Shown piece by piece: positions 4,715 through 8,572 of a stretch of DNA of 64,000 nucleotides. Within the stretch, counting starts at the first letter, position 1, and the number at the start of each line of letters is the position of its first letter. The DNA comes from Prochlorococcus marinus str. MIT 0919. GTDB taxonomy: Bacteria > Cyanobacteriota > Cyanobacteriia > PCC-6307 > Cyanobiaceae. The notes under the pieces were generated by a model. It ran no database searches. It worked only from the letters and a program-made list of their open reading frames with translations, and was not told the origin of the DNA. Where the stretch lies: contig NZ_CP114779.1 of assembly GCF_027359375.1 (NCBI RefSeq), positions 1,054,001-1,118,000 on the forward strand, read 5' to 3'. The position numbers and the translations under genes are program-made.

Positions 4715-6724
4715 ATGGTCGCTGCGCCCGCTTCACTCGATACTCTTTGCATTAACAGCATTCGAATGCTGGCTGTTGATGCAGTTAATAAATCCAAAAG
4801 CGGACATCCTGGATTACCTATGGGATGTGCACCAATGGGATATGCCCTTTGGGACAAGTTTTTAAACCATAATCCTAAAAATCCCAAATGGTTCAATCGA
4901 GACAGATTTGTTCTTTCTGCTGGTCATGGCTGCATGTTGTTATATGCCCTATTACATCTAACTGGGTACGATTCAGTAACTATTGAAGATATCAAACAAT
5001 TTAGGCAATGGGGCGCAAAAACTCCTGGGCACCCTGAGACTTTTGAAACAGCTGGTGTAGAAGTTACTGCAGGTCCTTTAGGAGCAGGAATCTCAAATGC
5101 AGTTGGACTAGCAATTGCAGAATCACATCTAGCAGCAAAATTCAACAAACCAAATCTTTCTATTGTTGACCATTTCACCTACGTCATCATGGGAGATGGA
5201 TGCAATCAAGAAGGGGTTGCATCAGAAGCATGTTCTTTAGCTGGTCATTTAAAGCTTGGAAAACTTATTGCTTTATATGATGACAATCACATAACTATTG
5301 ATGGCAGAACAGATGTTTCTTTTACCGAAGATGTACTGAAAAGATATGAATCATATGGATGGCATGTCCAGCATGTAAAAGATGGGAATTCCGATGTAAA
5401 TGCAATTTCTCAGGCTATAGAAACAGCTAAAGCCGTAACAGATAAACCTTCAATCATTAAAATAACAACCACTATTGGATATGGATCTCCCAACAAAAGC
5501 GATACTGCTGGAGTTCATGGAGCACCTCTAGGCGAAGAAGAAGCTGATCTAACCAGAAAATCGTTGAATTGGCCTTATGGTCCTTTTGAGATACCTCAAG
5601 AAGCTTATGAGCAATACAGGAAAGCAATAGATAAAGGTTCCAAGTTAGAAAGCAATTGGAATGACTTGCTTGCAACATATCGATCTAAGTATCCAAATGA
5701 ATCAAAGGAATTTGAAAGAATGTTGCGAGGCGAGCTACCGGGAAATTGGGACCAAAATTTACCGACTTATTCATCAGAAGACCAAGGGTTAGCCACAAGG
5801 AAACATTCCCAAATCTGTTTAGGCGCTCTCGGACCAAATCTGCCAGAACTCATTGGAGGTTCTGCAGACTTAACTCATTCAAATTACACTGATATCAAAG
5901 GGGAGACAGGATCATTCCAGCCTGAGACTAGGGAAAAGCGCTATTTGCATTTTGGAGTAAGGGAACATGCAATGGCAGCTATTCTTAATGGCATTGCCTA
6001 TCACGACAGCGGACTAATTCCCTATGGAGGAACATTCTTAGTATTTGCTGACTATATGAGAGGCTCAATGAGACTTTCAGCTCTCAGCGAGCTCGGAGTG
6101 ATTTATGTTTTAACTCACGACTCAATAGGCGTGGGAGAAGATGGACCAACTCACCAACCAATAGAAACTATTCCTTCCCTTAGAGCAATGCCAAATATGC
6201 TTGTCTTTAGGCCAGGAGATGGGAATGAGACGACTGGCTCTTACAAGCTGGCGATCAAAAATAGGAATCGGCCTAGTTCCCTATGCCTAAGTAGACAAGG
6301 AATGCCGAATCAAAGAAATTCCTCTAGCGATAAAGTTGCATTTGGAGGGTATGTTCTTGAAGATTGCGAAGGCACACCTGAATTAATAATGATTGGTACA
6401 GGTAGTGAACTAAATCTTTGTGTTGAAGCAGCGAAGGAATTAAAAAATAAGGGTAAAAAAGTTCGTGTTGTTTCTATGCCATGTGTTGAACTATTTGAAG
6501 AGCAAAGTAGTTCTTATAAAGAAGAAGTTTTACCAGTTAATGTAAGAAAACGTCTAGTTGTAGAAGCAGCCGAAACTTTTGGATGGCATAAATATATTGG
6601 ACTTGATGGTGACAGCGTCACAATGAATGGATTTGGCGCATCTGCCCCTGGTGGGACTTGTATGGAAAAATTTGGCTTTACCGTTGAAAATGTTCTCAAC
6701 AAAGCTACTAAACTTTTAGGTTAA
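4715..6724 (+). CDS. tktA: Transketolase
   Basis: Transketolase moves two-carbon units between sugar phosphates and serves both the Calvin cycle and the pentose phosphate pathway. The 669-residue length is typical. The thiamin diphosphate motif starts at MGDGCNQEG about residue 160. The N-terminal domain shows [10 protein letters not shown] and the central pyrimidine-binding domain shows [14 protein letters not shown]. The C-terminal domain is complete. It lies 50 bases after fabF on the same strand and could be co-transcribed. It depends on the thiamin cofactor whose synthesis genes thiC and thiG are also in this window. Confidence 0.97.
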
Positions 6725-6757: not shown

Positions 6758-8170
<1,413 letters not shown>

Positions 8171-8187
8171 TTAAAGGAGAACCCGAA

Positions 8188-8203
8188 CTGGCTTTGATCA
8201 CAC
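8188..8203 (-). promoter_or_regulatory. Potential anti-aptamer strand of the thiC riboswitch
   Basis: On the minus strand this segment reads GTGTGATC-AAA-GCCAG. It is complementary to CTGGC-TGA-GATCACAC inside the TPP aptamer (8250-8265), giving 8 pairs, a 2x2 mismatch and then 6 pairs. The paired aptamer segment includes the invariant CTGAGA pyrimidine-binding core, so this helix and the ligand-bound aptamer are mutually exclusive. I infer that it is the switching strand of the expression platform. Confidence 0.6.
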
Positions 8204-8209
8204 AAAATG

Positions 8210-8296
8210 CACTTTCCTTCGCCGGAATAACCCGAATCAGGTTCAGAGGGTGTGATCTCAGCCAGAGAAGCTTTCGCTTTTAGGCACCCCTAGTGA
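8210..8296 (-). ncRNA. TPP riboswitch (THI element)
   Basis: Read on the minus strand, the element begins CACTAGGGGTGCC, has the invariant CTGAGATCACACCC, then GAACCTGATTCGGGTTATTC and ends CCGGCGAAGGAAAGTG. These are the conserved THI-box blocks in order. P1 can close through CACT (8295-8292) with AGTG (8213-8210). It sits 55 bases upstream of thiC and senses thiamin diphosphate. Confidence 0.95.
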
Positions 8297-8341
8297 TATT
8301 CGTAAAATAGCTAAATTTTCAAAAAAAACTTAAATATCAAA

Positions 8342-8572
8342 TTAAGAGTTATTAGTTTCTTCCATCTGATTTAACTTAAGAAACAGTTTTTTTCTTCTCT
8401 GATGACGCTCTACAAATCCTGTACAAATGAAACCTATCCCAATCAGTAAGGCAGGTAAAGCTTGTACACGATCATTGCCCTTTCTTTGATAGAAGCCAAA
8501 AATAGCAATTACTACTAATAATGGAGCGGCTATTCTGATCAAAGTTTTGCTAGAAGGCTTGCCTAGTTTCAT
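8342..8572 (-). CDS. Small membrane protein, DUF3188-like
   Basis: This 76-residue protein has two hydrophobic segments, about residues 11-27 (IRIAAPLLVVIAIFGFY) and 37-53 (LPALLIGIGFICTGFV), joined by a short charged loop, with a basic then acidic tail. It resembles the cyanobacterial DUF3188 family, whose function is unknown; that recognition is from memory. I chose the ATG at 8572 because it overlaps the stop of the upstream peptidase gene as ATGA, a typical coupled start. A longer frame to 8617 would start inside that gene. The gene is the last of the ruvB-TPR-peptidase run. Confidence 0.7.
   Translation of the reverse strand: MKLGKPSSKTLIRIAAPLLVVIAIFGFYQRKGNDRVQALPALLIGIGFICTGFVERHQRRKKLFLKLNQMEETNNS

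Follow-up and report, generated by a model that had tools for sequence, protein, structure and literature searches.

The leader of thiC in Prochlorococcus marinus str. MIT 0919 is probably (we would put it at about 0.6) a translational OFF switch responding to TPP, in which one short strand of the linker between aptamer and gene has two alternative partners, the ligand-binding part of the aptamer and the context of the start codon. Comparison of leader sequences documents that these complementarities exist, how well they are conserved and how far they extend phylogenetically. In the leader of the window (the whole stretch of DNA analysed, 64,000 nucleotides of contig NZ_CP114779.1, in whose coordinates all positions are given) the anti-aptamer half of the model is strong, and the start pairing, which there rests on wobble pairs, is weakly supported.

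From these complementarities we infer TPP binding, two states and a block of the ribosome by pairing at the start. Without TPP, linker GUGAUC would pair with aptamer GAUCAC (where the CUGAGA core ends, together with the P2 side). In many species a second helix, formed by linker CCCCUNGG with aptamer CUAGGGGU, would assist in dismantling the aptamer, and the start codon would be left free (ON). With TPP bound, GAUCAC would be locked in the ligand pocket and the strand released, which would then pair with GAUCAUG, or a variant of it, and cover the start codon (OFF). The start codon would be covered directly because the leaders that carry the strand (group A, defined below) are mostly without a Shine-Dalgarno sequence.

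The aptamer (THI element, 8197-8301, minus strand, as are all leader features given here) matches RF00059, its 3' tail included, with a covariance-model score of 65.9 bits (gathering cut-off 54.3), and is the sole TPP match found across the whole genome. It lies upstream of a thiamin gene, thiC (6758-8155, minus strand, ATG at 8155-8153), the regulated open reading frame, whose product matches PF01964 (E 7.4e-189) and from which it is separated by a linker of 54 nt. Among the named matches to the window thiC, the best is from Prochlorococcus sp. AG-363-M21, at 93% identity. A transketolase gene (4715-6724, Pfam matches) converges on thiC, and transketolase is itself a TPP-dependent enzyme.

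The anti-aptamer strand GTGTGATCAAAGCCAG (8188-8203, minus strand) is complementary at 14 of 16 positions to the aptamer side CTGGCTGAGATCACAC (8250-8265, minus strand), the conserved inner GTGATC being located at 8201-8196 and its target GATCAC at 8257-8252. A preliminary description had proposed this pairing of 8203-8188 with 8265-8250, through eight pairs, a 2x2 mismatch and six pairs; its coordinates are right, the eight pairs are Watson-Crick pairs, the CTGAGA that it placed in the target is located at 8262-8257, and the observation of complementarity is confirmed. As many matches recur in only 2 of 2000 dinucleotide-shuffled linkers, and the core-linker duplex has an energy of -23.9 kcal/mol compared with -12.1 +/- 3.3 for 100 shuffles (1 as low; p 0.02). 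The helix is present in the unconstrained minimum-energy fold of the leader; the 167-nt leader is not unusually stable overall, 20 of 200 shuffles folding at least as well (z -1.27).

The interpretation given in that description is partly supported. Its proposal that the helix excludes the TPP-bound fold is borne out insofar as a downstream strand is complementary to essential aptamer bases and its inner six base pairs are conserved. These inner pairs (GUGAUC/GAUCAC) are a feature of the lineage, whereas the outer six Watson-Crick pairs, at that spacing, are found in the window genome only (1 of 93 group-A leaders, or 2 of 93 counting G-U). Pairing of the 3' flank of the strand is mildly favoured more widely (mean z -0.92 over 35 genera; below 0 in 30 and below -1 in 14 of them). 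An 8-base copy, TTCGGGTT, is present as described at 8236-8229 and 8187-8180, but its suggested role as a competitor strand was rejected as probable chance, since an 8-mer shared with the aptamer arises in 79 of 2000 shuffled linkers and TTCGGGTT is missing from the linkers of both congeners of the window genome. Two features had been missed, namely the second anti-aptamer helix and, in many relatives, a thiC start context that is complementary to the strand.

Of 201 genomes of the family that were searched, 179 contained TPP elements, and thiC leaders were read from 152 of these 179 genomes; one of the leaders has the same sequence as the leader of Prochlorococcus sp. AG-363-M21. Group A comprises the 93 leaders selected for a TGATC-like strand shortly after the aptamer (38 of 50 genera), and group B the remaining 59. 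For the tests of the second helix (helix X) and for the tree, three leaders with an odd strand offset (one each in genera g31, g45 and g48) were removed, which left 90, and the tree was built on 89 thiC sequences after removal of one further short sequence. From the 90 leaders, 66 were aligned; those left out belong to g9 and g18 (9 each), the two worst-fitting genera, and to g35 and g56 (six further members). The genus of the window is g1, with G078 and G039 as congeners, and g18 is presumably high-light Prochlorococcus of the MED4 group. Sixteen further named picocyanobacterial leaders, none identical to the 152, were also considered.

The strand stands out by its conservation from the linker around it. 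It reads exactly GTGATC in 75 of 93 group-A leaders and lies at an offset of 5-8 after the aptamer in 90 of them, and on the 89-tip thiC tree its six bases changed 2, 0, 0, 1, 1 and 3 times, compared with 16-33 times at neighbouring linker positions. The inner six pairs with GATCAC are formed in 99.0% of the cells of the 66-leader alignment (g9 and g18 excluded), compared with at most 40.4% when the strand is slid by 1-3 columns. Pairing with the aptamer is complete in 79 of 93 group-A leaders and reaches 5/6 in 13, counts that are not independent of the selection of the group by its strand; over all 152 leaders, the core-linker duplex beats shuffles in 56. Compensatory changes in close relatives, by which the preliminary description had proposed to judge the helix, were looked for in the alignment: only two double-change cells were found, and neither partner showed covariation in excess of column shuffles (66 aligned leaders), a result which is undecided because the strand nearly never changes. 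In g18 (9 high-light leaders) the aptamer has GATCAT and the strand is TTGATC (5/6 pairs); among the further named high-light loci, one has ATGATC facing GATCAT, which restores 6/6, and another has GTGATC, with 6/6 including one wobble. A TGATC strand is found in 13 of the 16 further named leaders, and 3 are without it. The fixed GATCAC was rejected as evidence of pairing: it varies in other cyanobacterial families, but group B mostly keeps it without the strand. A variant arrangement was observed in L038 (G043), where the aptamer has GATTAAACCC and the linker has GGGTTTA, which is complementary to it over seven bases at a position displaced by a few bases, and where a GATC-type start context is absent.

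The second possible partner of GTGATC is the start context at -4 to +2 (GGTTAT of GGTTATG; 8154-8159, minus strand), which in the window leader offers 6/6 formal pairs, three of them G-U. Taken over the whole of group A (93 of 152 leaders), the start region is complementary to the released strand: the thiC starts are GATCATG or close variants (exactly GATC in 24 of 93), and with one leader per genus (38) the frequencies at -4 to -1 are G.76, A/G.92, T.87 and C/T.95. The 48 open reading frames of the window, taken as background, include none with GATC before the start, and their preferred base at -1 is A. The leaders had not been selected for strand-start pairing. This pairing is 6/6 in 42 and 5/6 in 27 of the 93 leaders, and its genus mean is 5.40 of 6 in the true register, compared with 0.74-3.50 at 21 other slides; for the four non-coding start positions alone the values are 0.77 and 0.17-0.53 (89 leaders), and in the 66 aligned leaders, which exclude g9 and g18, 92.2% of cells pair, compared with at most 48.0% when slid. 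The pairing falls to 3-4 of 6 in g18 and to 2 in g9 (9 leaders each), and 9 of the 16 further named leaders are high-light ones with a weak start context. The start-duplex energy beats shuffles at p<=0.05 in only 13 of 93 leaders. Position -1 tolerates either pyrimidine and position -3 either purine, keeping the pair with the strand, and at these wobble-tolerant positions transitions make up 25 of 35 inferred changes, against a background of 229 of 658. This argument is weakened because position -4, which does not tolerate wobble, is also rich in transitions (11 of 15 inferred changes, 12 of the 15 breaking the pair).

In fold models, forcing the aptamer lowered the accessibility of the start (-4 to +3) from 0.53 to 0.30 as genus means, compared with 0.48 to 0.44 when the linker was shuffled, and the modelled strand-start pairing was 0.42, against 0.10 with shuffled linkers. 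A drop of more than 0.2 was predicted in 20 of 38 genera (g31, represented by an odd-offset leader, among them), compared with 2 of 38 for the shuffle means, G028 and G055 being clear examples of a start closing in the aptamer fold. The other 18 genera include that of the window (0.36 to 0.19), in which the predicted strand-start pairing is only 0.04; in G078, a congener, it is other pairs that close the start in the modelled OFF state. In the model of the window genome itself the strand-start helix does not form and no closing of the start is seen in the aptamer-bound fold, the AUG being 0.52 unpaired and GGGUUCUC pairing with GAGAGCUU in both modelled states. Since the start pairing of the window leader rests on wobble pairs it is uncertain, and the OFF state there may use a different local structure. 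The modelled energies of the window leader are -40.1 kcal/mol for the aptamer fold and -49.6 kcal/mol for the anti fold, the latter being favoured without ligand by 6.8 kcal/mol as the mean of the genus; this gap suggests that the ligand would have to act while the leader is being transcribed and that control may be kinetic.

The possible second anti-aptamer helix joins, in the window, the aptamer 5' side TAGGGGTGCC (8283-8292, minus strand) and the linker side GGGTTCTCCTT (8174-8184, minus strand). It is weak there (-10.0 kcal/mol compared with -7.8 for shuffles, p 0.13), and 8184-8177 is predicted to pair with 8153-8146 (the G of the AUG and the following codons) in both modelled states. A linker stretch resembling CCCCUNGG and complementary to aptamer CUAGGGGU recurs among the relatives, with p<=0.05 in 28 of 90 leaders, a genus mean z of -1.32 and a mean z below -1 in 24 of 35 genera. 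In L032, from the window congener G039, the linker GCACCCCCC has two possible partners, aptamer GGGGUGC (p 0.025) and the GGGG before the start codon, and may be a second strand of the two-partner kind.

The leaders of other cyanobacterial families were compared using 64 loci, 56 of them with a core found by sequence pattern (a few cores, e.g. L171, L184 and L189, being visibly misplaced) and 32 with a start called by pattern. In 28 of these 32 leaders the aptamer is followed by the ATG at a distance of 19-32 nt, and SD-like bases are present at -20 to -4 in 31 of 32, compared with 10 of 93 group-A leaders (9 of g9 and 1 of g18; none in the window's genus g1). Group-A linkers measure at least 41 nt (median 57), and with its 54-nt linker the window leader is not of this SD-proximal design (SD-like bases and an ATG within about 32 nt of the aptamer). 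TGATC/T occurs within the first 25 linker bases of 8 of 55 other-family leaders, five of these cases sitting, by eye, in an unrelated TTGATTGAGG stretch.

Group B linkers contain a CUCAG/CUCGG-type motif in 47 of 59 cases and G[CU]UGCG[CU], complementary to codons 2-3, in 24 of 59; in g6, g10, g24, g31, g45 and g59 the linker has GCUGCGC, which can pair with thiC codons 2-3 (AUG-CGC-AGC) either exactly or with wobble. A two-partner design is not claimed for this group, as neither partner clearly beats shuffles: longest-run tests on the 59 leaders barely exceed them, with genus means of 6.49 vs 6.23 and 5.93 vs 5.65. Within group A, g9 (L072, L088, L102 and others) is the only genus with a common SD-like site (CAGGAT), and it is without GATCATG. 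Its strand carries an extension AUCCUG (6 of 9 leaders, by eye) complementary to the CAGGAU site; this pairing was rejected as a candidate, its duplex energies beating shuffles in 0 of 9 leaders.

These data also bear on readings in which the start codon is not a partner of the strand. The strand might form the anti-aptamer helix only, as an ON lock competing with the aptamer, the OFF state being reached by another route such as local start hairpins, Rho-dependent termination or decay of the mRNA; the GATCATG-like context would then be incidental. The near-invariance of the aptamer pairing beside the looser start pairing fits this, as do the absent or weak start pairing in g9, g18 and the window's own leader and the other pairs used by G078; however, the start context is strongly shifted away from background and towards the complement of the strand, in exactly one register, and we consider this reading unlikely.

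It is quite improbable that the GATC palindrome at aptamer, strand and start has been kept as a DNA motif, that is, as a protein-binding element or a translation context. Such a motif would fit with the self-complementarity of GATC, with a strand that varies so little and with covariation no greater than in shuffles. However, many starts carry G at -3 or T at -1 (GGTTATG, GATTATG, GGTCATG), keeping the pairing and losing GATC, and the reverse complementarity to aptamer GATCAC extends over the longer strand GTGATC. Likewise, of the three genera with the strand GTGATT, two have AATCATG and the third GTTCATG. An intrinsic terminator platform, for which the T-rich run found just before the start in many relatives might speak, or the lack of any regulatory role, is the least probable of these readings: 0 terminator-like sites (a GC stem followed by a T run) were found in 8050-8450 of the window, to which the scan was confined, in agreement with the preliminary description, which had claimed no terminator control, and the strong conservation of the strand argues for a function.

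On the preferred reading, a strand with two partners, a wider proposition can be put forward, on which we would take an even bet: the picocyanobacterial thiC start would have come to imitate the TPP pocket (GAUCAU-G for GAUCAC), the six-base strand, near-frozen across 38 genera, would arbitrate between pocket and start, and this layout would have taken the place of the SD-proximal design when the Shine-Dalgarno sequence was lost. If true, it would be a riboswitch platform built for SD-independent initiation, and it suggests a route for rebuilding such a platform once that signal is lost. The model is concrete and testable, for the one TPP riboswitch found in the genome and in a group with few Shine-Dalgarno sequences, and it opens thiC control in very abundant ocean phototrophs to simple compensatory-mutation tests.

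Several published accounts frame this result. Direct translation attenuation is given as frequent in Cyanobacteria in the account of PMC2258182, Prochlorococcus marinus is tabled among SD-scarce organisms in PMC10783764, and according to PMC3766115 no gene other than thiC is regulated by TPP in the cyanobacteria studied. A putative TPP riboswitch before thiC in marine picocyanobacteria (cluster 2), excluded from the experiments, is listed in PMC1242208; this is the same element in sequenced picocyanobacterial genomes, and its expression platform is undescribed in that account. Among the matches listed in the open-licence literature, a scope outside which most subscription papers fall, no paper on this expression platform was found. 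What is known is thus the aptamer and its site before thiC in marine picocyanobacteria, and what is new is a variant of an anti-aptamer, start-hiding platform.

The start-proximal TPP riboswitches of other cyanobacteria share the aptamer upstream of thiC and the translational logic, and differ by an ATG 19-32 nt from the aptamer with SD-like bases, whereas group A has a longer linker in which such bases are rare. The thiC TPP riboswitch of E. coli, as far as the account in PMC5234074 goes, shares both ligand class and gene with the leader described here: in its ligand-free state an alternative (anti-P1) stem excludes the aptamer, and in its ligand-bound state the ribosome-binding site and the start are hidden, as would likewise be the case here; action of the ligand during transcription has also been proposed there. 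In E. coli, according to the same account, the competing stem opens P1 and it is a ribosome-binding site plus start that is hidden, whereas the strand of group A is directed at the last part of the CUGAGA core together with the P2 side, and the site that it would hide is mostly without a Shine-Dalgarno sequence, the AUG context itself being the partner.
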